Shown piece by piece: positions 24,993 through 64,000 of a DNA stretch of 64,000 nucleotides. The notes below the pieces were generated by a model. That model worked only from the letters and a program-made list of their open reading frames with translations. It was not told where the DNA came from and ran no database searches. The DNA is from Bacteroidota bacterium (lineage in GTDB: Bacteria > Bacteroidota > Bacteroidia > Chitinophagales > Saprospiraceae). Numbering within the stretch: position 1 is the first letter of the stretch; every line of letters starts with the position of its first letter. The translations under genes were made by a program, and so were the position numbers. Where the stretch lies: positions 186,001-250,000 of the forward strand of contig WGNL01000004.1 of assembly GCA_016124585.1 (NCBI GenBank), written 5' to 3'.

Positions 24993-25823
24993 CTATGCTA
25001 AATCGGCAAAATATTGTTCCATATTCCGAAAAATATAGACACCTGCGAGTAGCAATATTAATGAAGTTGTCAAACTAAATATTATCAGTTGCCAATCAAT
25101 CGCTAATCCCGAAAAGGCAGCCCTTGATAAATGAATTGGGCCGCACATTGGATTAAACTTTAGCAGAATTTCAAATCTTGTCCCTTTGAATTGATTCGAC
25201 TCATAGATTACAGGACTTAAAAAAAATAGTATTTGAATGAAAAATGGGATAGCATATTGAAAATCACGGTATTTTACATTCCAGGCTGAAAGCAAGAGGC
25301 TTAGGCCAGAAGTTGCCAATATTGCAAGGATTAGGCTAACGAATAATAAAAAAATGGTCTGAACAAAATGAACTGGTAGACCATAATAAATTGCCATTAA
25401 CACCAATATGGCCAGTGAAAAGAAATAATCGAATACGGCGGCTAATATGGCAGAGATTGGGATAATAATTCTTGGAAAATATATTTTTTGAATAATTTTT
25501 GAATTACTAAGTATGCTGTTGGCAGCGTTTGAAAGGCCACCAGAAAAAAGCTGCCAAATCGTTAAGCCACTTAGTACAAAAAGTTGATAAGGAAGTTGCC
25601 CGGATTGTAGCTTCAAACCTTTGCTAAAAACAAAAGTGAAAATCAACATTAATGACAATGGTTGTAAAATGGCCCAAATTATTCCCAAGGCCGTATGTTT
25701 GTACTTAACTTTTATATCACGCCAAGTGAAAAAATAGAATAGCTCACGGTACATCCAAAGTTCTTTCAGCTCAATCGTAAAATTGGACTTAGGCTTTATT
25801 TTGTACTCGATTTTTGTCTCCAT
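24993..25823 (-). CDS. wzm: Polysaccharide ABC exporter permease
   Basis: A 276-residue ABC-2 type permease. After a cytosolic N terminus it has LWMYRELFYFFTWRDIKVKYKHT, the typical amphipathic entry of Wzm proteins. About six membrane segments follow, for example LGIIWAILQPLSLMLIFTFV, LPYQLFVLSGLTIW, and the C-terminal IIFSLTTSLILLLAGVYIF. I choose the ATG at 25823 (METKIEYKIKP), because the longer frame to 25904 adds residues unlike the family and would run deep into the divergent GT4 gene. This start codon overlaps the GT4 start by two bases (CATG). Confidence 0.92.
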   Translation of the reverse strand: METKIEYKIKPKSNFTIELKELWMYRELFYFFTWRDIKVKYKHTALGIIWAILQPLSLMLIFTFVFSKGLKLQSGQLPYQLFVLSGLTIWQLFSGGLSNAANSILSNSKIIQKIYFPRIIIPISAILAAVFDYFFSLAILVLMAIYYGLPVHFVQTIFLLFVSLILAILATSGLSLLLSAWNVKYRDFQYAIPFFIQILFFLSPVIYESNQFKGTRFEILLKFNPMCGPIHLSRAAFSGLAIDWQLIIFSLTTSLILLLAGVYIFRNMEQYFADLA

Positions 25824-26967
25824 GAAAATTCTTTTCTGTGCAAATATTTTTGAAAGTAGTGTAGTTGGTCCAGCTCGCTTGGCAGAAAACTTGCTGAAAA
25901 TCAATGAATTGCACTCCGAAAAACACGAGCTGTATATTTTGACAGCTGATGCTAAATTGGGATATCACAATGTTTACGCTTTCAAATATTTTTGCCCAAA
26001 AGTATTTAGATTCTTGGACTTTTGGTTCCATGGGAGGGCTTATCACAAAAACATCAAAAAATTGTTGGAGACACATGAATTCGATGCAATTGTTTTTGGG
26101 AATGCGATTTATGGTTTGATTACAAAACTGTTTGGGATTAACTGTCCTATCATTGGAATGGTAAATGATGACCATGTTGCAGCAGTGAATTTCAAAAACT
26201 ATCGGAAAATGCCAGGTGGCTTGGGGCTTTTGTGGCTAAGAAACATTGAAAAGTTGGCCATTCTCAAACTCGATTTTGTTATCACCTGCTCAAATTACCT
26301 GACAAAATTTCTAGAAGCGGAATACCATTTAAATCTTCAAAATTCAATGGTCTTCTATCAAGGAATAGATGTTTTCAAAATTACTTTTAAACCAATAAGA
26401 TTCAAGAATTTGAATCAAATCAAGGTTTTGTTCATCAAACATCGAGCTGATATTGGTAGAATCGAAGACTTGGTGCTGGCATTAAAAAGATTAGGCCAAT
26501 TTAATTTCAAGCTTACCATCATAGGCCCACCAGAGGTGGCAGTGGGCCATGTTTTAACTTACGCAAAAGAGATTTTCAATTTGGAAATCAATTTTATTGG
26601 ACCAGCTCCACAATCCATTGTCCATCAACAACTTGGACAAAATGATATTCTTTGCATTCCTTCATCGCTTGAGGCACTTGGCCTGGCAAACGTAGAAGGA
26701 TTGGCGCATGGAATTCCTGTCGTAACGACAAACGTGGGAGGGATACCCGAGGTAATGAATTATGGACAAAATGGTTGGCTTTGTGAACCAGGAAATCCAT
26801 CAAGTCTGGCAGAGGCTCTAAAAAAATGTATCACGGCACTACCCGAAGAAAAGCTTGAAAAAAGCCAGAGAGGTAGGACTTTTGTTGAAGCGAATTTTAA
26901 TGCCCAGACGCTACTTTCAAAATTCTTAATGCAACTGGAAAAAATTGTAATGACGCCCAATGCCTAG
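25822..26967 (+). CDS. Family 4 glycosyltransferase
   Basis: A 381-residue GT-B enzyme. The N-terminal domain starts MKILFCANIFESSVVGPARLAENLL, with the GP-x-R loop of GT4 enzymes. The C-terminal nucleotide-sugar domain has LCIPSSLEALGLANVEGLAHGIPVV, with the E-x7-E motif, and VTTNVGGIPEVM. The donor sugar cannot be read from sequence. It is the first gene of a three-gene plus-strand operon (GT4 - C5-epimerase - GT4) with 4-8 base overlaps, so it most likely builds the uronate-containing part of the polysaccharide. The start at 25822 is the only good one near the conserved N terminus. Confidence 0.9.
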   Translation: MKILFCANIFESSVVGPARLAENLLKINELHSEKHELYILTADAKLGYHNVYAFKYFCPKVFRFLDFWFHGRAYHKNIKKLLETHEFDAIVFGNAIYGLITKLFGINCPIIGMVNDDHVAAVNFKNYRKMPGGLGLLWLRNIEKLAILKLDFVITCSNYLTKFLEAEYHLNLQNSMVFYQGIDVFKITFKPIRFKNLNQIKVLFIKHRADIGRIEDLVLALKRLGQFNFKLTIIGPPEVAVGHVLTYAKEIFNLEINFIGPAPQSIVHQQLGQNDILCIPSSLEALGLANVEGLAHGIPVVTTNVGGIPEVMNYGQNGWLCEPGNPSSLAEALKKCITALPEEKLEKSQRGRTFVEANFNAQTLLSKFLMQLEKIVMTPNA

Positions 26968-27988
26968 TCGTACCGTAAAATACTACCTAGATACCTTTCA
27001 ACTCAAAGCAGCGGCAATGCTTAGCTTTTATGCTGAAAAAATAGGTTTGTTGGAAGGTATTAAAAAACAGACAAGGATGGGAATGGCTGAATGGGCATTG
27101 TTCCCTACAATAGAACCTATTTGGCAAAATACCTACATGGCCTATGGGTTTATTGAAGAACCGAAGGTGCTCGCTAGATTGTTGGAGTTTGATGGGTCAG
27201 GTATACCCGTAGGCTGGAAACATGCTCACCCCAAAGCTCATAATCCACTGATGGTCAGTTATTTAGCATTGGTTTGGGCAAATCATTATTACTGTACACA
27301 AGATACAAACAGCAAAGTAGAGTTCATGAAGCTCGTAGATTTTTTGGCAGAATTTGGCAAAACCACTGACCAAGGATTTTTACTACCATATTTTGAATCG
27401 GTGCCTAAATTTGGACTAATAAGCCCGTGGTATTCTGGGATAGCACAGGCAGTTGGTAGTTCAGTTTTTATTCGAGCCTTTAAAATGACAGGAAACCCTT
27501 TATATCGTGAAATAGCTCAAAAACTATGTTCAACCCTGTTGCGGCCAGTTGAAATGGGAGGCTTCCTTGAACAATTGCCCGAAGGAGGTTTTTGGATTAG
27601 AGAATACCCAACTTTCAAAATTAGTAGGGTACTAAATGGTTTTTTGTTTTGCCTGATAGCTCTTTATGAATACAAGTTATCGGTAGCGTCGCCACCTGAA
27701 TTGGATAAAGTTTTGGATGACTGTGAAGCTACCCTTTTTCAAGAATTACCTAATTATATTTTCGGTAAATACACACGATATGCAGCCGGAAAGGCTAAAT
27801 TTAGCAATGTGGAGTACCAAGGGTTATATGTTTATCTCTTCCAGCACTTATTTCTGCTTTCTGGCAAAAATTCATATTTGCAATTATCAAAGCATTTTAA
27901 TAGACATACTGATTGGAAGGCATTTTCATTATTTTATGAATCTGACAAACCATTTAAATCTCCTGACATACTGTATAGTTTCAAATGA
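26960..27988 (+). CDS. D-glucuronyl C5-epimerase family protein
   Basis: A 342-residue protein without a signal peptide. The C-terminal two thirds match the alpha/alpha-barrel part of heparosan/alginate-unrelated glucuronyl C5-epimerases: SPWYSGIAQAVGSSVFIRAF (WYSxxAQ motif, about residues 153-172), a GGFWIREYP stretch, SRVLNGFLFCLIALYEY, and near the C terminus Tyr-rich KYTRY...EYQGLYVYL. The family inverts C5 of D-glucuronate within a polymer to L-iduronate. A cytosolic location fits export of a finished chain by Wzm/Wzt. Flanking GT4 genes overlap it at both ends (8 and 4 bases), so the unit acts together. The similarity is clear but distant; a related lyase-like role cannot be excluded. 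Confidence 0.75.
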   Translation: MPSRTVKYYLDTFQLKAAAMLSFYAEKIGLLEGIKKQTRMGMAEWALFPTIEPIWQNTYMAYGFIEEPKVLARLLEFDGSGIPVGWKHAHPKAHNPLMVSYLALVWANHYYCTQDTNSKVEFMKLVDFLAEFGKTTDQGFLLPYFESVPKFGLISPWYSGIAQAVGSSVFIRAFKMTGNPLYREIAQKLCSTLLRPVEMGGFLEQLPEGGFWIREYPTFKISRVLNGFLFCLIALYEYKLSVASPPELDKVLDDCEATLFQELPNYIFGKYTRYAAGKAKFSNVEYQGLYVYLFQHLFLLSGKNSYLQLSKHFNRHTDWKAFSLFYESDKPFKSPDILYSFK

Positions 27989-29136
27989 AAAAGCTCAAAA
28001 TCATATGGTTAGCAACTTGGTGGCCGCGACCTGATCACCCAGTACTTGGAACTTTTACAAAAAGAGAAGCCGAAGCTGTTGCGCCTCACTGTGAGCTAGT
28101 AATAATTCATGCTTTGCCAACTTCGAGCAAGCAACATAATATTGTAATTCAAAATGCGGAAGCAGGTTATCGGGAAGTTTTGGTTCATTGCCCCAAACGC
28201 AAGGGCATTTTTGGACAAATACTATTTCTACGAGGTTGGGAATTGGCGATGCAATCCGTTGTTGATGAGGGGTTTAAACCCGATATTGTACATCTGCATG
28301 TGCTTTCATTAGCTGGAATTGCAGCATTGAAGTTTCACCGGAAAAATCATGTGCCTGTGATATTATCTGAGCATTGGAGCGGGTATAGCTTGGATAAAAT
28401 TTCCTTAGGGATAATTAGAAAATGGCTTTACAAAAAAGTGGTTGCCACAGCGCATATAAATTTTGTAGTTACAGAAAATATGGAACAAGCCATGAAAAAA
28501 ATGGGATTGAAAGGAGCTTATAGTGTTGCACCAAATCTAGTAGATACTGCTTTTTTCATGCCAACAGACACTCCAGTTTCTTCAATTCCATTTCAATTTT
28601 TGCATGTTTCTAATTTAGATGATGAACATAAAAACATAAGCGGAATTCTAAGAGCATTCGCAAAAATTATAACTACATATTCGGCTCATTTAACGCTAAT
28701 TGGTGGTGATAATGGTATAGCGCATGTTCAGCATTTGATAAAAGAATTAAATCTGGAAAAATATGTGACAGTGAAAGGTGTTCAGCCTTCATTAATCGTG
28801 CGACAGCAAATGCAACTTAGTCATGCATTCGTAATGTTCAGCAATAGGGAAGGGTTGCCATGCGTGATGTTGGAAGCAATGGCGGTAGGCTTGCCCATAA
28901 TTTCAACAAGTATTCCTGGGCTTGAGGATTGGGTAACACCAGAAGTAGGCATGTTGGTGTCAAAGGGTGATGAAGTAGGGTTGAAAGTGGCTATGCGAGA
29001 AATGGTGGATAATTTCTCATCTTATAATAGAGCCAAAATCAGGGAAAGAGTAATGAAGGAGTGTAATCCAGATGTCGTGGCGCAAAGAATATTGACTGCC
29101 TATAAGGACGCGGCAACTGCGACAAAACGCTCGTAA
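27985..29136 (+). CDS. Family 4 glycosyltransferase
   Basis: A 383-residue GT-B enzyme. It starts MKKLKIIWLATWWPRPDHPVLGTF, a common GT4 start. Mid-protein is VPVILSEHWSGY, and the C-terminal domain has FQFLHVSNLDDEHKNISGILRA and SNREGLPCVMLEAMAVGLPII with the E-x7-E motif. The ATG overlaps the stop of the C5-epimerase gene (ATGA). The end overlaps the convergent deacetylase gene by 37 bases, so any change here would touch both proteins. Confidence 0.9.
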   Translation: MKKLKIIWLATWWPRPDHPVLGTFTKREAEAVAPHCELVIIHALPTSSKQHNIVIQNAEAGYREVLVHCPKRKGIFGQILFLRGWELAMQSVVDEGFKPDIVHLHVLSLAGIAALKFHRKNHVPVILSEHWSGYSLDKISLGIIRKWLYKKVVATAHINFVVTENMEQAMKKMGLKGAYSVAPNLVDTAFFMPTDTPVSSIPFQFLHVSNLDDEHKNISGILRAFAKIITTYSAHLTLIGGDNGIAHVQHLIKELNLEKYVTVKGVQPSLIVRQQMQLSHAFVMFSNREGLPCVMLEAMAVGLPIISTSIPGLEDWVTPEVGMLVSKGDEVGLKVAMREMVDNFSSYNRAKIRERVMKECNPDVVAQRILTAYKDAATATKRS

Positions 29137-30446
29137 ATTTGTTCATATGGCTGATATTCAGGAACTTGAAAAGAGGTATTATGCCAAAGGAGGGTGAATG
29201 TTCCGCCATATTTTTTTACGGTATGAAGCAAGTGCATCAATTCAGTTTCCATTTGTTCAGGTGTTGATTTTTGGTAAACCGCAAATGTTGTGTCCATCGC
29301 GATGAGCGGAAATTCCATGAGTTTCAACTGCCTTCTTTCAACAATATCGAAAACTAGGTATGGGGTGCAGGTTCCACATCTGAATCCAGATTTCTCCGGA
29401 AATCCAAGTGTGCTATCAACTTGAAGATTGTTTTTCTCCCAAAGGGGCCAGGTTTTACCTATCTCAAAACGCAAAAAATGCTGCCGCCCTTCTGCTATGA
29501 TTTGTGGTGAAACACTTTCGAATCTGCGAACTTCTTGATCAAATATTTGCCCATCAGTAGCCGAAAGATAACTGGGATGGATGCCTACAACATGACCACG
29601 TTCATGAATATGCTTCATAATGGGCTGAACATGGCTAAAATTTCGTTCCATGTCATTGTCATATTTTGTTTTTCCACCGGCTAAAAAATAGAAATGAGAA
29701 ATTAAACCATGCTGTTCTGATACATCCATCAAATAATCATAACTATCAAAAGGATCTCTACTCCTCTTAAACTTATGGTTGAAAAAACTATGTAGGTTGA
29801 ATTTAGCAGCTTTTAAATCACCTCGTTTCAGTAAGTCTCCAGTTGTTTTTTTCAAAAAGCTAAACCAATTTGGCCACAAATAAAGTGCATCGACATCATG
29901 GGTAAGCTTTAAGCGATAAGCGTTTGGCCTTGGTGGCAAACTAGCACCCAAATGGGCCAGTGAATTGCGGACTAATGCGGCCATTTCGTCCACAATTGGT
30001 CGATGAAGGAATCCCTGTTGAAAAGCAATGCTTGCTTGGGCTGGAAATCTTCCATGGCTGTCCTTGGTCTGGGTAATATGTTCTTCCCACCTGGTTAAAC
30101 TAAAGAAACTAGCAGTAAAAACATCAATTCCTATCCGAATTTTGCCAAATGAAACCTCACATTTATTATCCCCGAATATTATCGGCAAATCATTTTCTTC
30201 CAGGAATGATATTTCAGTTTTTGATGCCCAGCAAATAGATTTGGGAACATTCCGACTTCTTTCATTTAATAATAAAATATGAAAGCAATCATTAATAACT
30301 AATTGATGACCATTGAATAATGTAATTAATGTGTCCGACCTCTCCTCCCATTGAAGCTCAAAGTCAAATCTAAGCATAGTCTTCATTAAGCAGTTTACAG
30401 CATAGCTACGTTCAGGATGGTAATTATTTGGTAAACTGATTATCAA
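29100..30446 (-). CDS. Polysaccharide deacetylase family protein with DUF7033-type N-terminal half
   Basis: A 448-residue protein. Residues about 150-448 form a NodB-like deacetylase fold: RLKLTHDVDALY (about residues 184-195) holds the T-H-D-V-D metal motif, and HVVGIHPSYLSA holds the H-x3-S/H motif. The N-terminal half resembles the DUF7033 region found in front of such domains in Bacteroidota. The family removes N- or O-acetyl groups from sugar polymers; here it could free amino groups for sulfation. The start codon is TTG at 30446 and overlaps the stop of an upstream remnant (TTGA). It ends inside the convergent GT4 gene. Confidence 0.85.
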   Translation of the reverse strand: MIISLPNNYHPERSYAVNCLMKTMLRFDFELQWEERSDTLITLFNGHQLVINDCFHILLLNERSRNVPKSICWASKTEISFLEENDLPIIFGDNKCEVSFGKIRIGIDVFTASFFSLTRWEEHITQTKDSHGRFPAQASIAFQQGFLHRPIVDEMAALVRNSLAHLGASLPPRPNAYRLKLTHDVDALYLWPNWFSFLKKTTGDLLKRGDLKAAKFNLHSFFNHKFKRSRDPFDSYDYLMDVSEQHGLISHFYFLAGGKTKYDNDMERNFSHVQPIMKHIHERGHVVGIHPSYLSATDGQIFDQEVRRFESVSPQIIAEGRQHFLRFEIGKTWPLWEKNNLQVDSTLGFPEKSGFRCGTCTPYLVFDIVERRQLKLMEFPLIAMDTTFAVYQKSTPEQMETELMHLLHTVKKYGGTFTLLWHNTSFQVPEYQPYEQIYERFVAVAASL

Positions 30447-30677: not shown

Positions 30678-31391
30678 CTATTTTCCTTGTACAAGTATTT
30701 TGGTTTGTTCAAGGCCATATCTAAACAATATGTCCAAAATCGTATTGCCGATAAATGGTTGATAGGTTTTATGTTGCTGCAATTTGAAATCTATATAACG
30801 CAATTCTATGGAGTATTGGCTGAAATCCGAAGGCATTTGATAATTACTTCCTCCTATGCCACTTAAATAACAAGTGCCGTTTAGCGCCCTTACAATTTCA
30901 ATATTTTTATTTTTTTCTGAATTTAGTATTTCCAAATTGGACGAACAGCACAAATTTCTTTCTATATCGAGCCATTCCATAATGGTAACTATAAGTATAA
31001 TATTTATTTCTGCTAAATGACTTGTCGATTTTACTGTCAAAAAAAGTTCTTCCAATTTTTCTATTATTTCTTTAAAATAAGGAGTTTTATTATATCGATT
31101 TACCAATATATTCAAATGTTTTGAACTCCAGTCTTGCTTTTTGTCAACCTCCAAATTCTTGATAAGCTCAAAATCACTATGTTTTTTAAGTGGAATTGTT
31201 AGCCATTCAAATGATTCGTCATTTGCAGCTTTGCGAATTCGGGTCCTACGGGTAGGATAGCGTTTAGAATGTTCGACGTTGTCGAGAAAAACGAAAGTAT
31301 CACAAGCATAAATTTTATGGAAATAACCCAGCCAAGGAAAGTAATTAGGCTGGTGGATGGCCACAGTTTTCTTATCAAATATATTGTCCAT
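30678..31391 (-). CDS. WbqC family protein
   Basis: A 237-residue protein with the typical WbqC start KTVAIHQPNYFPWLGYFHKI (about residues 8-27), followed by DTFVFLDNVEHSKR and RTRIRK. The C-terminal part has GTCYLSGIGGSNY and a final helical tail. WbqC-like proteins are found in O-antigen and capsule loci. They are thought to take part in making or attaching an amino sugar or amino-acid substituent, but the exact reaction is not established. The start overlaps the fkbM-type gene by 17 bases. Confidence 0.88.
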   Translation of the reverse strand: MDNIFDKKTVAIHQPNYFPWLGYFHKIYACDTFVFLDNVEHSKRYPTRRTRIRKAANDESFEWLTIPLKKHSDFELIKNLEVDKKQDWSSKHLNILVNRYNKTPYFKEIIEKLEELFLTVKSTSHLAEINIILIVTIMEWLDIERNLCCSSNLEILNSEKNKNIEIVRALNGTCYLSGIGGSNYQMPSDFSQYSIELRYIDFKLQQHKTYQPFIGNTILDILFRYGLEQTKILVQGK

Positions 31392-32247
31392 GGACCATGA
31401 TGGGCGAGGATATTTTTACACGACTTTCAACAAGTTTCAAGTTTCGTAAGTAGAGGTTATTCCCTGTCATTGGAGAATCAATAATGTGAATTGTTCTTGT
31501 AAATGGTTGGTAATCAAATAGTTGAAATCCAAGTTGACACAAATTTTGGTGAAGTTTATCTTCGTCAAAACCAAATTTGACTCCTAATCCCATTCGCTCT
31601 ACAATTAAGATATTTAAGGTAGGATTGGCTAAAGTCTTCGAGGCACCACCTACCACAGCGGTCTCATAACCCTCTACGTCTATTTTGATTAAAATCGGTG
31701 TCTTATCCTGACAGAAATCATCCAGTGGAGCTAGTTTGGTGGGGATTCCTGATACTTCTTTATGTGATAAGATATGATTTTGAATGCCCTTGTCAGAACT
31801 AAGATATGCCACTTGATTTTTTTCGCCGATACCTAATTCATGTATTTTTATCAGATGCCTCAGTTGATTTAAAATAGCATTTCGTTCTAGTATTTTAGCT
31901 GCAGATGGTTCTGGTTCAAAAGCCATAACATCAGAACCACTTACACCGGCAGCAAGCAGTGAATAAGCGCCTATATTTGCACCTACATCAACAAATAAGT
32001 CGGCTGGCCGTAAAAAATGCAGCAAAAAAGCCATACTTGTAAATTCTGGCAAGCCGAAATAATAGCATGAAGTACTAGCATGAAATCCCCTTTTTACATG
32101 AATTCTTAATTCATTTACCCAAGGTTGGACTTGTTCTCCATTGAAAATTCTTGAAGAGATTTGCCATTTTATATAACGAAAAACAGCTTCAGCTCTTTTT
32201 TTTCGAGTTAGGGGATGCTTTAAAATAGCTTGTATCGCCTTTTTCAA
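31375..32247 (-). CDS. FkbM family SAM-dependent methyltransferase
   Basis: A 290-residue protein with a Rossmann methyltransferase core: DLFVDVGANIGAYSLLAA (SAM motif I, near residue 87), VMAFEPEPSA (motif II, acidic end of strand 2), and ILIKIDVEGYETAVVGGA further on. FkbM enzymes O-methylate sugars or other hydroxyls. In this setting it most likely methylates a sugar of the polysaccharide. It follows the PIG-L gene after 3 bases and overlaps the WbqC gene. Confidence 0.88.
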   Translation of the reverse strand: MKKAIQAILKHPLTRKKRAEAVFRYIKWQISSRIFNGEQVQPWVNELRIHVKRGFHASTSCYYFGLPEFTSMAFLLHFLRPADLFVDVGANIGAYSLLAAGVSGSDVMAFEPEPSAAKILERNAILNQLRHLIKIHELGIGEKNQVAYLSSDKGIQNHILSHKEVSGIPTKLAPLDDFCQDKTPILIKIDVEGYETAVVGGASKTLANPTLNILIVERMGLGVKFGFDEDKLHQNLCQLGFQLFDYQPFTRTIHIIDSPMTGNNLYLRNLKLVESRVKISSPIMVHGQYI

Positions 32248-32250: not shown

Positions 32251-32910
32251 TTATAAAATAGTACGGATATTCTCAAATGCTTCAGCTAAGGTTTTACCAC
32301 ATTGTACACCTCGAATCTCTGCTAAGCTTCGCAAAAATGAAGCTGACATATATGGCCTGCCTTCCTGGGTTTTATATGCAGCCAAAGCATTTATTTTTAA
32401 TTGAATGTGATTTTCATCTAACGAAATAAAAGTATTTGCCAAAAAAGAAAGATTATTCCATATCAATTCATAACCTAGCAGACTACAGTGTTTGAAAGCT
32501 CGCAATCCTTCTTCATATATGGTACGATGGTCTTGATGTATGTCATTTGATGCAGGAAGGAATACGAGGTCAGGCTTTATGATAGGTCTGAGCCTAATTA
32601 ATTCTTCAAGTATTTCCTGACGAGCATAGTTCAATTTTCGAACTTGGTATTTGAAAACCAACAAGTCTTCTGGCAGTATCCCAAGAATTTTGGTAGCTGC
32701 TCGCACCTCTATTTCAAGCTGGTTTTTGGGGAAATGACTTGGAACGCTTTCGTCGGCAGTTGAAAATGCTGCATAAAATACTTTTGAGCCCTGTTGAATC
32801 AACTTGGCAATCGACCCGCCACACCCCAATTCGCCATCATCAGTATGAGGCGCAAGAACAAGCACTCGTCTAGCATTTAGCATCCAAATATTCTTTAAGG
32901 ATTTTGGCAA
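32251..32910 (-). CDS. PIG-L family deacetylase
   Basis: A 219-residue LmbE/PIG-L enzyme. The zinc site motif is APHTDDGELGCGG (residues 20-32, P-H-x-D-D), and the second His motif is NDIHQDHRTIYEEG. The family removes acetyl groups from GlcNAc-type sugars on lipids or small molecules. A GlcNAc or ManNAc residue made with the neighbouring 2-epimerase is a possible substrate. The coding region overlaps wecB by 41 bases, so the two are tightly coupled. An internal start (residue 6 or later) would shorten the overlap but cut conserved sequence only slightly. Confidence 0.88.
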   Translation of the reverse strand: MPKSLKNIWMLNARRVLVLAPHTDDGELGCGGSIAKLIQQGSKVFYAAFSTADESVPSHFPKNQLEIEVRAATKILGILPEDLLVFKYQVRKLNYARQEILEELIRLRPIIKPDLVFLPASNDIHQDHRTIYEEGLRAFKHCSLLGYELIWNNLSFLANTFISLDENHIQLKINALAAYKTQEGRPYMSASFLRSLAEIRGVQCGKTLAEAFENIRTIL

Positions 32911-33955
32911 TTTGGGTGGAGGCTATTCCGTTGCCCAAACAGTTGGAATGGTCGGCCGGCTCCTGCCATTCTCTTGTATATTGAAGAATCTTTTGAGTGT
33001 CTGGACCGGAAATTCTGTTCCATCCTTCCGCTATTGTTTCCAGCCATTCAATTTGTCGATCAATGATTATGCCAGGTGTTTTGTGAAAATATGCTTCTTT
33101 CACTACGCCGCCCGAGTCAGTTATGGCCATTTTAGCGTAACGGATTAATGTCTGCGTTTCAAAAAAACCTAGGGGGGGCACTACCTGAACAAGCGGAAAT
33201 GTGGCAGGGTGGGGCAGTCCAAACTGTTCGATGGCTTTGGCTGTGCGTGGATGCATTGGGAAAATGACTGGCAAATCCAATTGGCGCAGTGCCTCTAGGA
33301 TGGAATGTAACGGCTCTCTGGAATCCGTATTATTGGCTCTATGGCAGGTGAAAAAATAATATCTGTCAGGTTCAACGTTGAATTTTTTTAATGTTGATTT
33401 ATTGTTCTCGATTTTTTCTAAGTTATTGTAAATCAAATCAATGCCTACATCGCCTACCAAATGTACATTTTCCCTAATTCCTATATTTTCGAGGTTTTTC
33501 ACCCCTGTCAAAGTAGGGCAAAAAAAGAGGTCAGTAATAGAGGTAGTGAGGAGTTTATTTACCTCTTCCGGTATTTTTTTGTCAAATTCACGGAGGCCAG
33601 CTTCTACGTGCGCTACTGGTAAATAGTTTTTGGCTGCTGCAATTGCACCTGCTGCGGTAGAGTTCGTGTCACCAAAAACAACGACAGCATTTGGCTTTTC
33701 AATGTCAATAACCTCGTCAATATTAGCTATCATTTCACCTAGCTGCCAAGCTTGCCTGCCTGAGCCAATACCAAGATTATATGACGGTTTTGGAATTTCT
33801 AGTTCAATAAATAAATTATCAGATAAATTGGCATCATAATGCTGCCCAGTATGCACCATTACTTCATTGAAACCCATTATGGCAAGCGCCTTTGTTACCG
33901 GAGCAGCCTTAATAAAATTGGGGCGAGCACCAACGATGGAAAGTATTTTATTCAA
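32870..33955 (-). CDS. wecB: UDP-N-acetylglucosamine 2-epimerase, non-hydrolysing
   Basis: A 361-residue GT-B-fold epimerase that makes UDP-ManNAc from UDP-GlcNAc. It starts MNKILSIVGARPNFIKAAPV. Typical motifs are VMVHTGQHYD, VFGDTNSTAAGA, HVEAGLR, ITDLFFCPT, TCHRANN, IFPMHPRT, and the ITDSGGVVKEA nucleotide-binding stretch. There is no UDP-ManNAc dehydrogenase in the window, so ManNAc itself or a later product may be used. Stop-start overlap (4 bases) with the upstream GT4 shows operon structure. A C7 run (33172-33178) lies in the coding strand at VPPLGF. Confidence 0.95.
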   Translation of the reverse strand: MNKILSIVGARPNFIKAAPVTKALAIMGFNEVMVHTGQHYDANLSDNLFIELEIPKPSYNLGIGSGRQAWQLGEMIANIDEVIDIEKPNAVVVFGDTNSTAAGAIAAAKNYLPVAHVEAGLREFDKKIPEEVNKLLTTSITDLFFCPTLTGVKNLENIGIRENVHLVGDVGIDLIYNNLEKIENNKSTLKKFNVEPDRYYFFTCHRANNTDSREPLHSILEALRQLDLPVIFPMHPRTAKAIEQFGLPHPATFPLVQVVPPLGFFETQTLIRYAKMAITDSGGVVKEAYFHKTPGIIIDRQIEWLETIAEGWNRISGPDTQKILQYTREWQEPADHSNCLGNGIASTQIAKILKEYLDAKC

Positions 33956-35256
33956 TGATTGGAATCTATTTTTTTATTGTTGAAAACATGATTGTCTAAA
34001 AAATCTTTTAACATATTTTCCCAACGATACTTTTCCAAAGCTTCTAGTGGAATTACGGGAACAACATTGCCTGTTTTTTCCCATTCTTGGTACTTTTCCA
34101 GTATAAAATCCTTGACTTTTTGTTTTTGATTTAAATTGCAATAAGCAATCAAGCCTGCATTAGTTTCTTCAAAGATTTCACTTAGTTCATCATCTTGACA
34201 TCCATTCACAAGCAATAGGATGGGTTGTCGAGCTGAAAGATATTCATATAATTTACCAGTGGCATTTCCCTTTAATTCTGGTGTGGAATAAGTCAATAGA
34301 AGATTAATATGCGATGCTGATTGTAGTTGAACTGCTTCAGGATGTGTTATACTGCCAAGCGATTCAAAAATATCCGGTATTCCATATTTGTCAATTAATG
34401 GAATCCAGGTTGAGGAATCTTTGCCCGCATATTTAATTTTTACCTTTTCCCTATTTATTTCACCTGCTGCAAATAGTTCTGACAAAGCTTCCAATAACAA
34501 ATCAGGTTTTCGCAAATCCCTAAACATGGAACCCGTGTATGTTATGGTAAAAAACTCGGCAGATTGCATGTGCTTGACTGCCCCAAAACGATTATCTGGC
34601 AGTCCAATACCATTTCTCAAGACGACAACATTGTTGTGGAATGGTTTCAAGTGCACGGCCAAACCTTTTGACACGGTTGTAACAATATCTGCTTTGGCAA
34701 GTATTTTACGATTGCACCATCTTTGAAATTTTGGAAAATAGGTTTCGTTAAGGGCGGGGTCTAGATGAAGGTCTCGGAAGTCGGCGACCCAATAAAGTTT
34801 TTGGGGCAATATCAATTTAACTATATATGCTATAGCATGATCGCTGTAAGGGCGAAATGTAGAAAAAAGTAATGCTTCATGGGTGCTTTTTAGAACCCTT
34901 AATCCAATAAAAGCACCATGAATAATATAAATCAGCCCTCCTTCTCCGAAGAGTAGGTTTAAAGGGAATGAGTTTAAAAGATTGTAAAATCTAAAATTAA
35001 GCTTCGATTTTGTTTCTTCAGTTTTATAATACTTATTTTTAGCGAAGATTGCCCTAACAGTCCTGTAGTCTAAAGTTTTAGCTGAATTGATATGTGAATC
35101 ATCAATGTGGGTTGATTTTATTTTTCTGTTCGAGGTCGTAATTATAGAGATTTTATCAAAATATTTTTTTAATTCTTTGTTTATATAAAAACTGCGAAGG
35201 GAATTTGACTTGTAAGGTGGGAATGAATAACTTATCAGAAGGGCAGCAGGTTTCAT
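33952..35256 (-). CDS. Family 4 glycosyltransferase
   Basis: A 434-residue GT-B enzyme. The N terminus MKPAALLISYSFPPYKSNSLRSFYI and WVADFRDLHLDP are typical of a GT4 subgroup whose acceptors are lipid-linked sugars. The C-terminal domain has ITYTGSMFRDLRKPDLLLEA and GNATGKLYEYLSARQPILLLV, with a shortened E-x7-E region. A DUF-free, single-domain enzyme of usual length. It overlaps wecB by four bases and the broken GT4 gene by four bases, so it lies in the same operon. Confidence 0.85.
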   Translation of the reverse strand: MKPAALLISYSFPPYKSNSLRSFYINKELKKYFDKISIITTSNRKIKSTHIDDSHINSAKTLDYRTVRAIFAKNKYYKTEETKSKLNFRFYNLLNSFPLNLLFGEGGLIYIIHGAFIGLRVLKSTHEALLFSTFRPYSDHAIAYIVKLILPQKLYWVADFRDLHLDPALNETYFPKFQRWCNRKILAKADIVTTVSKGLAVHLKPFHNNVVVLRNGIGLPDNRFGAVKHMQSAEFFTITYTGSMFRDLRKPDLLLEALSELFAAGEINREKVKIKYAGKDSSTWIPLIDKYGIPDIFESLGSITHPEAVQLQSASHINLLLTYSTPELKGNATGKLYEYLSARQPILLLVNGCQDDELSEIFEETNAGLIAYCNLNQKQKVKDFILEKYQEWEKTGNVVPVIPLEALEKYRWENMLKDFLDNHVFNNKKIDSNH

Positions 35257-40361: not shown

Positions 40362-40419
40362 GATTAAATTAATTCATTGTTGGTTGATTGCTATTCTCAT
40401 GTTTTTAAAACACATTTGC

Positions 40420-58016: not shown

Positions 58017-58931
58017 TTATTTTCCATTTTCTAAAGATTCAATATAATCTTTTATGGCTTTTGCACAATTTTTTCTTCCATTTACATTCCAATGGCTGTC
58101 AAACCCACAATCCTTGGGGGTTAATATATGTTTAACTTCAACGGTAGGATTAGCTGTGCTGGAAATGAATTTTTCATTTAATTTCCCTTTTTCATATAGT
58201 ATAATAATGTCGCTATTTAATCTCGATAGCGCATCTTGATTAATTTTACCTTGGCTGTTCTGTGTTAACTTTTCATTTTTAGCTTTAGATTCTATTTGAC
58301 TTGAAACTGTAGGAAATCCTGAAAAAAGTTCAGTCAATTTCAACCCCAATCCATGATTTATGTTCAAATATCGTATTAGTGCAATGTTATTGTATAATTT
58401 TCTTATAAAAGATTCATTAAGTGGTTTTTTTACACCCATAAAACTTGGCTTATTTGCAATTAAATCTTTATCTGTAATTAACATAAAAGCGTAACCATAT
58501 TTTCCTCGTATGTATTTTTCATAAACTTGTACATAATCATTAATATTAGCCCCATCCCGCCCATATTCGTGAACTGTGACTTTATTATTCATTTGTAATT
58601 CTAATTGTCTTCCTATAGATTCTTCAACATTTGATTGAAACCCCTGTATGTATGAATCCCCAATTATTGCTACGTATATTTTATTTGAATCAATGTCAGA
58701 GTAATCTAATATGCTGTTCCATCCCTGGTCATTTATTTTGTAATGGCTGCGTATCTCGCCCAATCCACCACGCACCCAAATATTTTCGGTTCCTGGTTTC
58801 AAAAGTTTATCATTCTCAATTATTGCTGTTGGTACAGTATGTCCACTTAAGTGAAATACCTTCAAAATTAATTCTAATGATATACTAGTACTCAGCAGAA
58901 CAACTAATATGTAAAGTATAAATTTTTTCAT
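58017..58931 (-). CDS. SGNH-fold O-acyl transfer partner protein
   Basis: A 304-residue protein with an N-terminal membrane anchor (FILYILVVLLSTSISLELILKVF). The catalytic block I is VAIIGDSYIQGFQS (G-D-S, near residue 91), and the C-terminal block V is GFDSHWNVNGRKNCA with the Asp-His pair. This is the SGNH layout of AlgX/AlgJ/PatB-type proteins that place acetyl groups delivered by a MBOAT partner. Its start codon shares the base 58931 with the MBOAT stop, so the two genes are one translational unit. Confidence 0.78.
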   Translation of the reverse strand: MKKFILYILVVLLSTSISLELILKVFHLSGHTVPTAIIENDKLLKPGTENIWVRGGLGEIRSHYKINDQGWNSILDYSDIDSNKIYVAIIGDSYIQGFQSNVEESIGRQLELQMNNKVTVHEYGRDGANINDYVQVYEKYIRGKYGYAFMLITDKDLIANKPSFMGVKKPLNESFIRKLYNNIALIRYLNINHGLGLKLTELFSGFPTVSSQIESKAKNEKLTQNSQGKINQDALSRLNSDIIILYEKGKLNEKFISSTANPTVEVKHILTPKDCGFDSHWNVNGRKNCAKAIKDYIESLENGK

Positions 58932-60382
58932 TAAAATTGAAAATAAATAAAGGATAATGATTTGCTTACTGGAATATTTAATATAATTATTATTAGCAAA
59001 GACATGTCAACAAAAATGCTACTGAGAGTATTAGATGAAAAAAGGTTGATTTTTTTAGTCTCGATTAGGTATTCAACTATAATGAAAGTAATTAGATAAA
59101 AGAATTCCTTAAATAAAGGTTGATTGTCGTAAGGGTTTAAAAAAATTGCTGTTGAAGTTGAAAAATTAAATATTCCTGAAATATATTGGAATGCTTGATT
59201 GATGGATTCAGATCTGAAGAAAATCCAAGCAATAGTAACAGTTAGAAATGTCTTTACTACCAACATTGATTCATTTAAGTTTGGCAACCAATATTTGGTC
59301 TCTGAAAGTGCATCTAAATATTTTCGATTGGATTTCCTAACAAATGAGGTAATAAACAGAATTGCATGGATGCCGCCCCAAGCCACAAAGGTCCAATTTG
59401 CACCGTGCCATAGGCCTGATACCAAGAAAATGATAAAGATGTTGCGTATGTTTTTTTGTTTGCCAACTCTAGAACCTCCTAATGGGATGTATAGATAATC
59501 TCTGAACCAAGTTGAAAGGGATATATGCCATCTTCTCCAAAATTCAGCAATATTTCTTGAAAAGTAAGGAAAATTAAAATTAACCATCAATTCAAACCCA
59601 AACAGTTTTGCTAAGCCTCTTGCAATGTCTGAATAGCCACTAAAGTCACAGTATATTTGAAATGAAAAGAAGACAGCCCCCATAATTAGAGTAGGGGAGG
59701 AGTAGTCAGAAAAATGACCAAATATTTCGTTAACACTTGGGGATAACGCATCTGCAATTACAATTTTCTTGAAAAATCCCCAAAGCATTAAACGCATTCC
59801 TTGAACTGCTGTTTGAAAATCGAATTTTCGGCTTTTAAGTATTTGTGGTAGTAAATTTGTCGCTCTTTCAATTGGTCCTGCAACTAACTGAGGAAAGAAA
59901 CTTACAAATGCGGAAAATGCAATGAAATCCCTAGTTGGGGCCAAATCTCTTTTAAAAATATCAATGGTATAGCTCATCGTTTGAAACGTGTAAAAACTAA
60001 TACCAACTGGTAAAATTATATTTAGAGAATTGAATCCAGCACCAGTTTTGAGACTTGGGATTAATTCAAAAAGTGAATCCAAGAAAAAGTTATAATATTT
60101 AAAAAAACCTAAAAGACCAAGATTGATAATTACACTTACCCAGAGAAATATTTTTCTTTTTAAAATGTTTTCTTCATTTTCAAGTAATCTACCTATGGTA
60201 TAATCAACAATTGTGCTGAACAAGATGAGCGATAAAAAACGCCAGTCCCACCAACCATAGAATACATAGCTTGCAATTACAATTAATAAGTTTTGTGTTT
60301 TTAAATTGCGATTTGCAACAAACCAGTATAGAAAAAATACTACTGTTAGAAATATTAGAAATTCTATAGAGTTAAAAAACAT
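58931..60382 (-). CDS. MBOAT family O-acyltransferase, AlgI-like
   Basis: A 483-residue multi-pass membrane protein. Recognisable are the N-terminal MFFNSIEFLIFLTVVFFLYWFV, FQTMSYTIDIFKRD, FFPQLVAGPIERA, WRRWHISLSTWFRDYLYIPLGGSR, and LVSGLWHGANWTFVAWGG with the catalytic His near residue 322. AlgI-type proteins pass acetyl groups across the inner membrane for transfer to a polysaccharide. The SGNH protein encoded next is the likely acceptor of that group. Confidence 0.94.
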   Translation of the reverse strand: MFFNSIEFLIFLTVVFFLYWFVANRNLKTQNLLIVIASYVFYGWWDWRFLSLILFSTIVDYTIGRLLENEENILKRKIFLWVSVIINLGLLGFFKYYNFFLDSLFELIPSLKTGAGFNSLNIILPVGISFYTFQTMSYTIDIFKRDLAPTRDFIAFSAFVSFFPQLVAGPIERATNLLPQILKSRKFDFQTAVQGMRLMLWGFFKKIVIADALSPSVNEIFGHFSDYSSPTLIMGAVFFSFQIYCDFSGYSDIARGLAKLFGFELMVNFNFPYFSRNIAEFWRRWHISLSTWFRDYLYIPLGGSRVGKQKNIRNIFIIFLVSGLWHGANWTFVAWGGIHAILFITSFVRKSNRKYLDALSETKYWLPNLNESMLVVKTFLTVTIAWIFFRSESINQAFQYISGIFNFSTSTAIFLNPYDNQPLFKEFFYLITFIIVEYLIETKKINLFSSNTLSSIFVDMSLLIIIILNIPVSKSLSFIYFQF

Positions 60383-60384
60383 TT

Positions 60385-61512: not shown

Positions 61513-61620
61513 ATTTATTTGAACAATTTATTTGTCAAAATTTATTGTATATAAATACCTTTATTGTTAGAATATTGAGCGAATCTTAATTACTTTAATT
61601 TATTGTATGTCAACTTGCAT

Positions 61621-62295
61621 TTAATAGCCATATTTAAGCGCAAGCTTTTTTATTTTTTCAGTCAATGTTATATCTTCATTTTCTAAATCAGACCAAGATA
61701 ATGCGGTATGACTTCTTGTATTTATTTTATCTTCTTTGTTAAGAAGCCTTTGGTTTATATGTGTAGTTTTAATTGAAAGTGCATTCAAGACTGGAATTAT
61801 TTCAGTTTGAAAACACTCTGCTTTAACCCTGAACTCTGATTTAGATTCAGCCATTAAATTCCAATAATACCAATATTTCATCGCTTGTAAAATTTTAGAG
61901 TCTTTGATTAAATCAATTGGTATTTCCTTGCTAATGAACTCCCAGCTTATACCTCCAATCGTACCTTGAATAGACGATATAGCAGCTAAAGGTTCTCGTA
62001 CTTGATGGATTAAAGTAAATTCTAGATCTTTTATTTGATTAAATGTTGGCCCAAACGGTACACTATCATTATCAGATACTAAATACCAAGAGCTTATTCC
62101 ATTATATCGCAACCTTTCATGTCCAATATTAATTCCTAAATGTGAGAGATATATTGAAGAAAAAGTTGTACCACTCCTTCCGCAACCTATAATTACCATC
62201 CCCTTTGGTTTATTAAACTTAATTAAAATATAGAAATAATAGTATTCAAATTTTCTAATAAATTTGCTTAGATATTTTTTTATCATTAACTTCAT
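61621..62295 (-). CDS. PAPS-type sulfotransferase-like protein
   Basis: A 224-residue P-loop protein. VIIGCGRSGTTFSSIYL (residues 34-50) fits the 5'-phosphosulfate-binding loop (G-x-x-R-S-G-T-T), and LIHQVREPLAAISSIQG fits the 3'-phosphate-binding R-x-P-x6-S region. INIGHERLRYNGISSWYL is shared by a bacterial sulfotransferase-like group. It is smaller than most sulfotransferases (about 250-350 residues). If active it moves sulfate from PAPS to a sugar hydroxyl or amine. No signal peptide, so it acts in the cytosol. Confidence 0.7.
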   Translation of the reverse strand: MKLMIKKYLSKFIRKFEYYYFYILIKFNKPKGMVIIGCGRSGTTFSSIYLSHLGINIGHERLRYNGISSWYLVSDNDSVPFGPTFNQIKDLEFTLIHQVREPLAAISSIQGTIGGISWEFISKEIPIDLIKDSKILQAMKYWYYWNLMAESKSEFRVKAECFQTEIIPVLNALSIKTTHINQRLLNKEDKINTRSHTALSWSDLENEDITLTEKIKKLALKYGY

Positions 62296-62338
62296 TTATT
62301 TTGGCCAATTTATCCTTTACGAATTAGAATTACATGTT

Positions 62339-63352
62339 TTAATTTTTAGATGTATTTTTTTCGATTGTGTTGAGATATGAATTGATTATTTTGTGGATAT
62401 CAAATCTATCTTCAGCAACTTGTCTTGCAGATAAGGAAAAGGACTGCCAGTTATTTTTTACATTTAATATTGCGTCAACTAATGATTTTACATCTGGAAA
62501 TCCTAATTCCCATGGATCAGAACCGTAAGGCACAATAAATCCTGCATTTGGAGGAACTAATTCTTTGAGCGAGCCAGTGTCAAAACCAACAACTGGTGCG
62601 CCACATGCTAATGCTTCAATTACTGTATTTGGGCATGCAGGATTAACGTCAAGTGAAAGGTAAATTGCATTTTGATAAATCAATGGTAACTTTTCTCTTG
62701 AAACAACCCCCATGTACTTAATTTCTGGATTTAGTTTTTCCTTAGATAATTCATTTTCAAAATTACCGTACATAAAAATTTCAATAGTTCCTGATAATGT
62801 AAGCATTAATTGATTAAGTAACTCAAGTGAGTATGGTGAGTAATCAATTGCTCCTTCAACTATTAGCAATTTAACTTTTTCTGAAATTGAGGGAAATGGC
62901 TTAAATATATTTAAATTAACTCCGTTATAGATTACTGTATATGGTACCCTAGATTTAATTTTTATTTTTTTCCACCAATTTTCCACAAACTTACTTTGGA
63001 ATATTACAATATCAGCAAAAAAAGCGTATATTATAGTGCTTATTATATTTCTTGATTCTAATAATAAAATATTGCTGATACCTTTTTTTTTCTTCCAATG
63101 CAACCAATTTCGACCATCTAATCTGTATATTATAGGTATACCTTTAATCTTCAATTTTGATAACCAAAATAGTTTTTTTGTTCCGCCAATAATAAATACA
63201 ATTTCAGGATTAACTTTGTCATTTGGGTAAATAATTTGCCACCCTAATAATCTTAATTCACTTTCAAATCTTGTTTGAAAACTTCCAGGACCACCAGTCC
63301 CAGCTTTGTGAGGAAACCCAATAGTTCTTTTTTGATTCATTATCATAGCCAA
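62339..63352 (-). CDS. Family 4 glycosyltransferase
   Basis: A 337-residue GT-B enzyme. GFPHKAGTGGPGSFQTRFESEL forms the donor-side loop of the first domain, IPIIYRLDGRNWLHW is mid-domain, YTVIYNGVNLNIFKP begins the second, and ACPNTVIEALACGAPVVGFDTG carries the E-x7-E-type motif. It overlaps the terminal sulfotransferase gene by 10 bases. The first two Met residues (1 and 3) are both possible starts. Confidence 0.9.
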   Translation of the reverse strand: MAMIMNQKRTIGFPHKAGTGGPGSFQTRFESELRLLGWQIIYPNDKVNPEIVFIIGGTKKLFWLSKLKIKGIPIIYRLDGRNWLHWKKKKGISNILLLESRNIISTIIYAFFADIVIFQSKFVENWWKKIKIKSRVPYTVIYNGVNLNIFKPFPSISEKVKLLIVEGAIDYSPYSLELLNQLMLTLSGTIEIFMYGNFENELSKEKLNPEIKYMGVVSREKLPLIYQNAIYLSLDVNPACPNTVIEALACGAPVVGFDTGSLKELVPPNAGFIVPYGSDPWELGFPDVKSLVDAILNVKNNWQSFSLSARQVAEDRFDIHKIINSYLNTIEKNTSKN

Positions 63353-64000
63353 TAAGTTAATTTTTTTCCAATTCTCTCTTCTAAAAGTAAATTAAATGGT
63401 TTATAAAATGATTTTAATTTGTCTAGTTGTGAATTTGAAGGTAATTTATATTTATACTTTATTTTTTCACCAAAGTGTAAAAATCGTTTTAATCTTTTTG
63501 GTATGAATTTTGAAGTAATTGGATTATTAAATAGGTGCAAATAAAGCGGGTTGTTCCAAATCATAGAAGCATTTTTTGCCTCTGGCAATGTCAATAATCC
63601 ATTGTCCGGATTAATATTCAAAAAACCATACAGTTTTCTTAACTCAATTTCAGGCGATGCTATTAGTTCTTCTAATACTATTATGTGAATATTTTCTTTA
63701 AGGAAGTACCTCTCAAATTCATTAATATAATTAATGTAGGCACCCCTACTAAAATATCCTTTGCTTACTTTTCCGAATTCAGCACAAAGATACTTATCTA
63801 ATATTTCATGTTCTTTTAATGGTTCAGTTAAATGTCGTCTATTATCCCAATATTGTGAATAAGCTCTTTTAATAGGGTCACGGAGAATCATAATTATTTT
63901 TATTTGACCCAGTGTATCAAAAATTTTTTTTGCAACATTTGGAAAACACATATAGCCCGGGCTAGCTTCGCCTACAAGGTTCTGTTCATTAGTAACAGCT
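63343..64000 (-). CDS. Sulfotransferase, 5' end outside window
   Basis: At least 218 residues are encoded; the frame continues to the right edge beyond the first ATG in view (63951), with residues NEQNLVGEASPGY before it. GEASPGYM fits the family G-E-x-S-P-x-Y region. KIIMILRDPIKRAYSQYWDNRR is the 3'-phosphate PAPS-binding block (R-D-P-x-x-R-A-x-S). RGAYINYINEFERYF and IHIIVLEEL follow, as in heparan- and other glycan sulfotransferases. The C-terminal PSNSQLDKLKSFYKPFN...L-E-E-R is the usual tail. The 5' PAPS loop lies outside the window. Confidence 0.88.
   Translation of the reverse strand, partial: AVTNEQNLVGEASPGYMCFPNVAKKIFDTLGQIKIIMILRDPIKRAYSQYWDNRRHLTEPLKEHEILDKYLCAEFGKVSKGYFSRGAYINYINEFERYFLKENIHIIVLEELIASPEIELRKLYGFLNINPDNGLLTLPEAKNASMIWNNPLYLHLFNNPITSKFIPKRLKRFLHFGEKIKYKYKLPSNSQLDKLKSFYKPFNLLLEERIGKKLTYWL

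Follow-up and report, generated by a model that had tools for sequence, protein, structure and literature searches.

What does a bacterial relative of human glucuronyl C5-epimerase (GLCE), an enzyme of heparan sulfate synthesis, do in a bacterial surface-polysaccharide locus, and on which sugar would it act? The question is raised by a 64,000-nucleotide stretch of DNA, hereafter the window, from a Bacteroidota bacterium of the family Saprospiraceae (assembly GCA_016124585.1, contig WGNL01000004.1, positions 186,001 to 250,000; C35:186001-250000 of our genome G000, which is 6.63 Mb long and 100% complete). An earlier note, made from the sequence alone, had proposed that the locus builds a sulfated, C5-epimerised uronic polysaccharide akin to a glycosaminoglycan. 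The sulfation genes and the catalytic residues of the epimerase uphold part of that proposal, and 'C5-epimerised' and 'sulfated', each taken separately, are likely; the glycosaminoglycan backbone is unsupported. With modest confidence, we lean towards a single sulfated surface-polysaccharide island whose GLCE-type epimerase acts on a uronate derived from a conserved WbpI/PIG-L module. The genes, their order, the catalytic residues and the co-occurrence in relatives are established from sequence.

The C5-epimerase and its clade

The epimerase homologue lies between two GT4 glycosyltransferase genes, as the earlier note had it, in a short plus-strand cassette:

25783-26967, plus strand: GT4 glycosyltransferase upstream of the epimerase (PF00534, 82 bits)
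26960-27988, plus strand: GLCE-type D-glucuronyl C5-epimerase, 342 amino acids (PF06662, 101.1 bits against a cut-off of 23.3)
27985-29136, plus strand: GT4 glycosyltransferase downstream of the epimerase, with a 4-base overlap (PF00534, 78 bits)

The protein belongs to the GLCE fold. The earlier note had tied its proposal to the catalytic tyrosines; the full Glu/Tyr/Asn/Tyr/Tyr set is present in the alignment, with E215, Y216, N226, Y274 and Y286 in the columns of the human GLCE catalytic residues E499, Y500, N510, Y560 and Y578, as listed in the catalytic-residue passages of PMC13308652. A profile built from four epimerase sequences and run against 398 Saprospiraceae genomes finds 30 carriers at an expectation value (E) of 1e-10 and 20 strong carriers at E 1e-40, the latter cut-off chosen after the gap in scores was visible. 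Among the 20 strong members the five residues are kept in 20, 20, 18, 17 and 20 sequences, in the order Glu, Tyr, Asn, Tyr, Tyr. Column G277, aligned with human R563, a putative carboxylate contact in GLCE, varies across the clade. PF06662 itself matches in 46 of 298 genomes of the order, 32 of them above cut-off, and two weak matches that were inspected (L034 and L035) resemble, by eye, a different family of sugar epimerases. The window's enzyme is the single PF06662 epimerase found in its own genome by a profile search, and neither a signal peptide nor a membrane helix is evident in it by eye. GLCE-type enzymes are described in passages of PMC13308652 as working on uronates within a chain.

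The WbpI/PIG-L module as a proposed source of the substrate

Co-occurrence leads us to favour a residue made by WbpI and the PIG-L de-N-acetylase as the substrate. PIG-L orthologues (E 1e-40) are present in 45 of the 398 genomes; among the 20 strong carriers of the epimerase, 19 have one (P 3e-19, ignoring relatedness); counting all 30 carriers, 20 have PIG-L where 3.4 are expected (P 2e-14, likewise ignoring relatedness). The pattern is also seen at the level of genera: each of the 8 strong-carrier genera is one of the 21, out of 112, that have PIG-L (P 4e-7). Of the five genera whose carriers are all weak, four lack a PIG-L match. Within the genus of the window, either gene is found in just 2 of 14 genomes (G000 and G491), both of which have epimerase and PIG-L together (P 0.01). 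Among the three genes profiled in this way (PIG-L, WbpB and PF00685 sulfotransferases), PIG-L is the only one that tracks the presence of the epimerase.

Neighbourhoods of all 20 strong carriers were examined, up to about 10 kb per side and less on the short contigs of G420 (3.5 kb), G394 (7.6 kb) and G494 (9.3 kb). In eight carriers (our own genome, G491, G487, G378, G438, G478, G532 and G311) both WbpI and PIG-L are in this stretch, at most about 10 kb from the epimerase, and 13 of 20 further PIG-L neighbourhoods, several on short contigs, include WbpI. In G491, of the same genus, the order is GT4, GT, WbpI, PIG-L, FkbM, WbqC, an extra 394-residue protein, DUF7033, GT4, epimerase, Wzm, Wzt, with identities of 68% for WbpI, 82% for PIG-L and 51% for the epimerase. 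The downstream GT4 has a 48% identical homologue adjoining the epimerase in G491, and a homologue of the upstream GT4 (31%) adjoins it in G487. Rightward from 22952, the window has three minus-strand genes (MptE-like, Wzt and Wzm), the plus-strand cassette and a long minus-strand run, whose left (3') end holds the module:

22952-23740, minus strand: MptE-like protein beside Wzt (PF01973, 48.7 bits)
23724-24986, minus strand: Wzt-like ABC ATPase with a carbohydrate-binding C-terminal domain (PF00005, PF14524)
24993-25904, minus strand: Wzm-like ABC-2 permease (PF01061, 61 bits)
29100-30446, minus strand: DUF7033 protein that resembles NodB by eye; it closes the 58-kb run and is syntenic in G491 (PF23019, 95 bits)
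30678-31391, minus strand: WbqC family protein (PF08889, 187 bits)
31375-32247, minus strand: FkbM-type methyltransferase (PF05050, 64 bits)
32251-32910, minus strand: PIG-L de-N-acetylase (PF02585, 67 bits)
32870-33955, minus strand: probable WbpI-type UDP-GlcNAc3NAcA 2-epimerase (by PDB scores and an E-W motif; NCBIfam wecB cut-off also passed)
33952-35256, minus strand: probable glycosyltransferase, conserved beside WbpI (synteny; weak GT4 match at E 0.06, no Pfam match at 1e-3)
35253-36434, minus strand: GT4 gene in two same-frame pieces (in-frame TAA at 35796-35798)

The PIG-L deacetylase of the earlier note thus stands, as does its ABC exporter, which is the Wzm/Wzt pair (23724-25904) and lies mostly just left of where that note began the locus. 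The WbpI assignment, a probable one, draws on PDB scores and on one residue. The protein scores 312 bits against PDB entry 8sxv compared with 243 for the UDP-GlcNAc enzyme 4neq. In the Thermus enzyme, Trp307 helps to hold the sugar, according to the active-site passages of PMC10622841. By eye, the equivalent position is Trp (EW) in the window's WbpI; all 20 of the distinct PIG-L-linked relatives share it, and three of three WecB-like proteins nearby in G341 and G361 have Arg (ER).

The split GT4 gene raises the possibility that in this strain the locus is in decay or silent and its glycan unfinished, an explanation that is compatible with the other readings and that we hold to be very improbable. 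The in-frame stop is its evidence, and it counts against a working locus. The remaining 52 listed open reading frames (ORFs) of the run are all open, however, and the homologue is likewise in two pieces in G327 (L158) and G416 (L170), where, as here, the gene may function in two parts or not be needed; the TAA may also be an assembly error.

Sulfation genes, and one glycan or two

Is the module part of a sulfating locus? The window's positions 22952-64000 are the 3' two thirds of a polysaccharide island at C35:208952-273345. Past the window end the next 38 kb were examined (L005 and L006), and the island extends 23 kb into them with genes for synthesis of the sulfate donor 3'-phosphoadenosine 5'-phosphosulfate (PAPS), further sulfotransferases and a nucleotide-sugar 6-dehydrogenase. 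From the DUF7033 gene to that dehydrogenase, the minus-strand run comprises 54 ORFs over 58 kb (the split GT4 counted as two), reaches to C35:273345 and has just four internal gaps of more than 100 bases (231, 150, 108 and 178); the GT4-epimerase-GT4 cassette (25783-29136) stands between Wzm and this run. At 0.356 for window 25700-64000 and 0.358 for L005, G+C content is lower than in window 1-22900 (0.394) and to the right of the run (0.430). At the 5' end of the run are the TviB/WbpA-type dehydrogenase and an UpxY antiterminator (NF033644, 137.8 bits against a cut-off of 100), which would fit a single long transcript spanning the whole run.

CysN, CysD and CysC genes, for the PAPS synthesis that the earlier note suggested looking for in the genome, lie near the 5' end of the run. 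CysD scores 410.7 bits (cut-off 396.6) and the adenosine 5'-phosphosulfate (APS) kinase model 237.3 (cut-off 138.7), and CysN was identified by its CysN-type GTPase domains. This is the single strong APS kinase of the genome; a second match, at 23.9 bits barely above cut-off, is on contig C41. Four sulfotransferases above Pfam cut-offs stand in the same one-strand run; they are listed here with the APS kinase and a motif-only candidate:

L006:1967-2812: APS kinase (CysC) with an N-terminal DUF2061 domain
63343-64000 (C35:249343-250173, L005:344-1174), minus strand: heparan 3-O-sulfotransferase-like protein of 276 amino acids, crossing the window end (PF00685, 58.7 bits)
L005:8182-9114: sulfotransferase (PF00685, above cut-off)
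L005:4760-5464: sulfotransferase (PF17784, above cut-off)
L005:5454-6179: sulfotransferase (PF17784, above cut-off)
61621-62295, minus strand: possible sulfotransferase by motif only (P-loop-like GCGRSGTTF, by eye)

The heparan-type sulfotransferase of the earlier note is right at family level: the best solved relatives of the 63343 protein are heparan sulfate 3-O-sulfotransferases (3-OST-1, 1zrh, E 3e-22), with the N-deacetylase/N-sulfotransferase NDST1 at E about 1e-10. Its second PAPS-like protein, 61621-62295, fared less well, having only the GRSGTT loop by eye; it matches no Pfam family to E 1 and no PDB relative, and its single-sequence model is poor (predicted local distance difference test, pLDDT, 48). 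A P-loop-like motif is also visible by eye in L005:6172-7245, with no profile support. The cluster description in PMC11641403 treats the presence of both PAPS genes and sulfotransferases in such a cluster as a hallmark of sulfated polysaccharide synthesis, and the island has both. Its glycan is probably sulfated, judging from this gene content; with the genes past the window end, the case for sulfation is good, and firmer than the earlier note could make it. As side observations, the CysC proteins of G234, G429 and G471, at about 200 residues, are too short for a DUF2061 domain, and a sulfotransferase domain lies within a 4024-residue open frame elsewhere in the genome (L003; G000:C30:24589-25374), with comparable long frames in the genus, G554, G491, G571, G519 and G540 among them.

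Further flanks were taken in for 13 other genomes. In G234, G429 and G471, which belong to one genus, CysC-CysD-CysN, ManC, GT4, WbpI, PIG-L, WbqC and PF00685 sulfotransferases (three in each genome) share a single island, and the epimerase is present elsewhere in the genome. G330 combines Wbp genes, Wza, Wzc, two sulfotransferases and PIG-L, with no epimerase match at E 1e-10. These islands make sulfation with the WbpI/PIG-L module a repeated combination, and the epimerase an optional partner of the module. Directly beside the epimerase, sulfotransferases were found in two of the 20 strong carriers (G454 and G494, Pfam-confirmed) by a screen of sequence motif plus BLAST, which can miss divergent ones. 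In G327, CysD and CysN lie about 5 kb from the epimerase; this candidate sulfation link was rejected, as their neighbours, by eye CysH-like and siroheme-methylase-like proteins, look like sulfate assimilation. A PF00685 sulfotransferase at G378:C65:1125-1745 lies about 3.4 kb from an APS kinase at G298:C65:5148-5594, if these are one assembly.

Several observations weigh against a single sulfated island with a WbpI/PIG-L-fed epimerase. On the side of the enzyme, NCBIfam has no model matching the epimerase, its predicted structure has a mean pLDDT of just 58, and the WbpI gene exceeds the NCBIfam wecB (UDP-GlcNAc) cut-off, with 243 against 210. On the side of linkage, WbpI and PIG-L are outside the stretch examined around the epimerase in 12 of the 20 strong carriers, and 25 of the 45 PIG-L genomes are without this epimerase. 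Of two other candidate partners of the epimerase, sulfotransferases are not supported and WbpB was rejected. PF00685 sulfotransferases are no more frequent with the epimerase than in its absence: they occur in 15 of 20 carriers, in 18 of 25 genomes that have PIG-L without the epimerase and in 25 of 35 that have neither gene, the control genomes being a non-random draw from those listed; WbpB (E 1e-60) is in 10 of 20 carriers against 210 of 398 genomes overall and is not enriched, and G491 and G378 have the epimerase-WbpI-PIG-L block without WbpB at that threshold. With homologues of WbpB this widespread, diamino-uronates may be common among the surface sugars of Saprospiraceae. Finally, two CysH genes outside the island pass the PAPS-reductase model, which weakens the APS kinase as proof of dedicated sulfation; PAPS in this genome may or may not also feed assimilation, as the CC and CxxC cysteines of both CysH proteins are presumably those of the APS-reductase type.

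These observations bring in a serious alternative, which we consider unlikely overall and nevertheless credible: the region would make two glycans. The epimerase, its GT4 partners, WbpI, PIG-L and WbqC would then serve a glycan exported by Wzm/Wzt, and CysDNC, the sulfotransferases, the EpsG-like protein, Wza and Wzc would make a separate sulfated polysaccharide, which implies that epimerisation and sulfation never meet on one chain. Wzm/Wzt are directly beside the epimerase in four of the 20 strong carriers (our own genome, G491, G487 and G352), and the two initiating transferases and two export systems of the island could each be divided between two products. At genome level, epimerase and sulfotransferases show no link, and the epimerase stays outside the three other CysDNC-sulfotransferase islands. 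Set against this, our own genome has WbpI/PIG-L on the same strand as CysDNC and the sulfotransferases, with few gaps in the run, three more genomes have them in one island, and a sulfotransferase adjoins the epimerase in G454 and G494.

Sugar supply, assembly and known systems

What chain would a single sulfated island build? The sugar-supply and assembly genes identified, together with a nucleotide-sugar dehydrogenase beyond the window, are as follows:

L006:3545-4846: TviB/WbpA-type 6-dehydrogenase of the UDP-HexNAc type (TIGR03026, 395.7 bits against a cut-off of 189.8)
36466-37545, minus strand: mannose-1-phosphate guanylyltransferase-like protein (ManC; PF00483, 135 bits; name inferred from family and neighbours)
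39429-40361, minus strand: GDP-fucose synthase-like protein, for GDP-L-fucose supply
40420-41523, minus strand: GDP-mannose 4,6-dehydratase, for GDP-L-fucose supply
41601-42278, minus strand: initiating sugar-phosphate transferase 1 (PF02397, 169 bits)
47913-48650, minus strand: initiating sugar-phosphate transferase 2 (PF02397, 170 bits)
51872-52813, minus strand: NodB-type deacetylase (PF01522, 77 bits; PF11959, DUF3473, 93 bits)
58931-60382, minus strand: MBOAT/AlgI-like O-acyltransferase (PF03062, 97 bits)

WbpB, WbpE and WbpD homologues come after the PAPS genes, with best PDB matches of 3oa2 (E 4e-120) for WbpB, 3nyu (E 3e-103) for WbpE and 3mqg (E 1e-66) for the acetyltransferase WbpD. 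The 6-dehydrogenase reaches 480 bits with the TviB model, below its cut-off of 592, and its best PDB match is 4r16, a UDP-ManNAc-type dehydrogenase. WbpA, B, E, D and I catalyse five steps to UDP-ManNAc3NAcA, as outlined in PMC10622841, and all five enzyme types, WbpI as a probable assignment, are in the island, divided between its two ends. The GDP-fucose pair (39429-41523) is conserved near PIG-L in several relatives. Two more short-chain dehydrogenases resemble 4-epimerases; one is nearest the TviC model, below its cut-off, and the other is nearest PDB 5u4q, named by its depositors a dTDP-glucose 4,6-dehydratase. Beyond the window end the island also has Wza/Wzc; an MsbA-like ABC transporter and an EpsG-like protein belong to the island as well. 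Of the three NodB-type proteins in the earlier note, 51872-52813 holds, 50723-51868 has no Pfam match at E 1 and 29100-30446 matches DUF7033 only; in its AlgI/SGNH pair, the MBOAT/AlgI-like member is sound, and the SGNH partner (58017-58931) has no match at E 0.01.

From these genes we infer the following reactions, along with the compartment, the polymer and the presence of epimerised and sulfated residues on a shared chain. CysD, CysN and CysC would make PAPS; WbpA, B, E, D and I would make UDP-GlcNAc3NAcA and UDP-ManNAc3NAcA; the two 4-epimerase-like enzymes would probably yield other uronates, and GDP-fucose would also be supplied. In the cytosol, the many GT4 enzymes would assemble a lipid-linked chain, to be modified there by PAPS-dependent sulfotransferases, by the PIG-L and NodB deacetylases and by other enzymes. 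Precursor and PAPS enzymes of such kinds are cytosolic, which makes epimerisation and sulfation before export likely. The GLCE-type enzyme, also in the cytosol, would abstract H5 of a uronate within the glycan, with a proton returned on the opposite face; the likeliest substrate would be a ManNAc3N(Ac)A unit that the conserved WbpI/PIG-L module makes, and the product its L-gulo form. Export would follow through Wza/Wzc with the MsbA-like transporter, or through Wzm/Wzt. The full version of this proposal, in which the epimerase turns diamino-mannuronate (ManNAc3NAc/N-A) into its L-guluronate form in a sulfated glycan, after or together with PIG-L de-N-acetylation, is tentative, and we regard it as rather doubtful in all its parts together. 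An L-gulo aminouronate has chemical precedent in the L-GulNAcA of the Vibrio cholerae polysaccharide VPS, for which the authors suggest C5 inversion of D-ManNAcA (discussion in PMC3901696); that acetylated, glycine-amidated exopolysaccharide is described there with no epimerase gene named and no sulfation mentioned in the relevant passages.

Could the chain instead be heparan-like, with D-GlcA converted to L-IdoA and neighbouring amino sugars N-deacetylated and sulfated? We judge this improbable. The only identified bacterial relative of the enzyme, RED-C5epi of Bermanella marisrubri, acts on GlcA in O-desulfated heparin (activity passages of PMC13308652 and PMC12834895), the 63343 sulfotransferase is nearest to solved heparan 3-OSTs with NDST further off, and PIG-L and NodB deacetylases are in the locus. 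UDP-GlcA supply is also possible. The earlier note saw no UDP-glucose dehydrogenase in view; beyond the 6-dehydrogenase past the window, a TuaD-like one lies on contig C41 (TIGR03026, 464 bits against 190; 552 against the TuaD cut-off of 700, which it misses). By contrast, the precursors the locus most clearly makes are diacetamido-uronate and fucose nucleotide sugars, and across relatives the conserved partner of the epimerase is WbpI/PIG-L. Pfam scans of locus ORFs (at least 150 amino acids past the window, at least about 160 within it) yielded no glycosaminoglycan-synthase family, the rest of the genome not being searched; the chain-building candidates are GT4, Bac_transf and unassigned glycosyltransferase-like proteins. 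Because of the UDP-2,3-diacetamido-mannuronate genes, the GDP-fucose genes and the lack of a heparosan-synthase-type transferase among the scanned ORFs, we do not read the backbone as a glycosaminoglycan. This is an unusual, probably sulfated, acidic-glycan locus with a GLCE-type epimerase rather than a demonstrated heparan analogue.

Compared with heparan sulfate synthesis by GLCE, NDST and 3-OST, the island shares the five catalytic epimerase residues and a 3-OST-1-like sulfotransferase, whereas the setting is bacterial and probably cytosolic rather than Golgi, the precursors are diacetamido-uronate and fucose, and deacetylases and sulfotransferases are separate genes, with no bifunctional NDST among the locus ORFs. 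RED-C5epi is likewise a bacterial GLCE-type epimerase; its heparin activity is demonstrated, whereas the island enzyme is known from sequence and tied to the WbpI/PIG-L module. The capsule cluster of Vibrio sp. KMM 8419 similarly unites cysC, cysN, cysD, sulfotransferases and transport, but with UDP-Glc and dTDP-Rha supply and Kps-type export, and with no C5-epimerase named in the cluster description (PMC11641403); the island differs in diacetamido-uronate, fucose, UpxY, Wza/Wzc and the epimerase. The WbpA-B-E-D-I pathways of Pseudomonas, Bordetella and Thermus have the same five enzyme types, with the probable WbpI counted (pathway account in PMC10622841), which here are split to the island ends and joined by PAPS supply and a C5-epimerase. 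Pontiella makes an N-sulfated glycosaminoglycan-like exopolymer from a cluster of glycosyltransferases and a glycosaminoglycan-type sulfotransferase; the polymer is measured there and the island known from genes, and the word 'epimerase' is absent from the main text of PMC7356697.

Bacterial GLCE-type activity (PMC13308652, PMC12834895), sulfated capsule loci (PMC11641403) and N-sulfated glycosaminoglycan-like polymers (PMC7356697) are thus already known from passages of these papers. Among the matches listed from titles and abstracts of the open-licence literature, none reports the epimerase/sulfation combination with the WbpI/PIG-L module, and the literature passages found assign no reaction to the bacterial GLCE-type group apart from the Bermanella enzyme. 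The sharp co-occurrence of epimerase and PIG-L therefore offers a concrete substrate hypothesis for this group. If diamino-mannuronate is the substrate, the group would be the enzyme type that is missing for bacterial glycans with L-gulo aminouronates. A heparan-like order of modification (deacetylate, epimerise, sulfate) would then have evolved on a different backbone. Additionally, sulfated glycosaminoglycan-like polymers have been measured in granular sludge, where few of the abundant organisms mined gave sulfotransferase hits (results passages of PMC10483923); a Saprospiraceae island that supplies its own PAPS and encodes several sulfotransferases and a GLCE-type epimerase is a testable candidate type of producer.

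Within the biosynthetic run, a DUF4838 protein of 798 amino acids is encoded at 44682-47078 (minus strand). Left of the island, six ORFs of window 1-22960 were scanned, from 11558 on, and mostly have a housekeeping look: an Mrp-like ATPase, a FAD synthetase with a GT2 domain (the fusion, at 12841, is outside the island), a Kazal-repeat protein, a Kdo transferase, a C25 peptidase and one ORF with no match. The Kazal-repeat protein (14924-15769, plus strand) has five Kazal-type inhibitor repeats and lies near the C25-peptidase protein (17966-22960).

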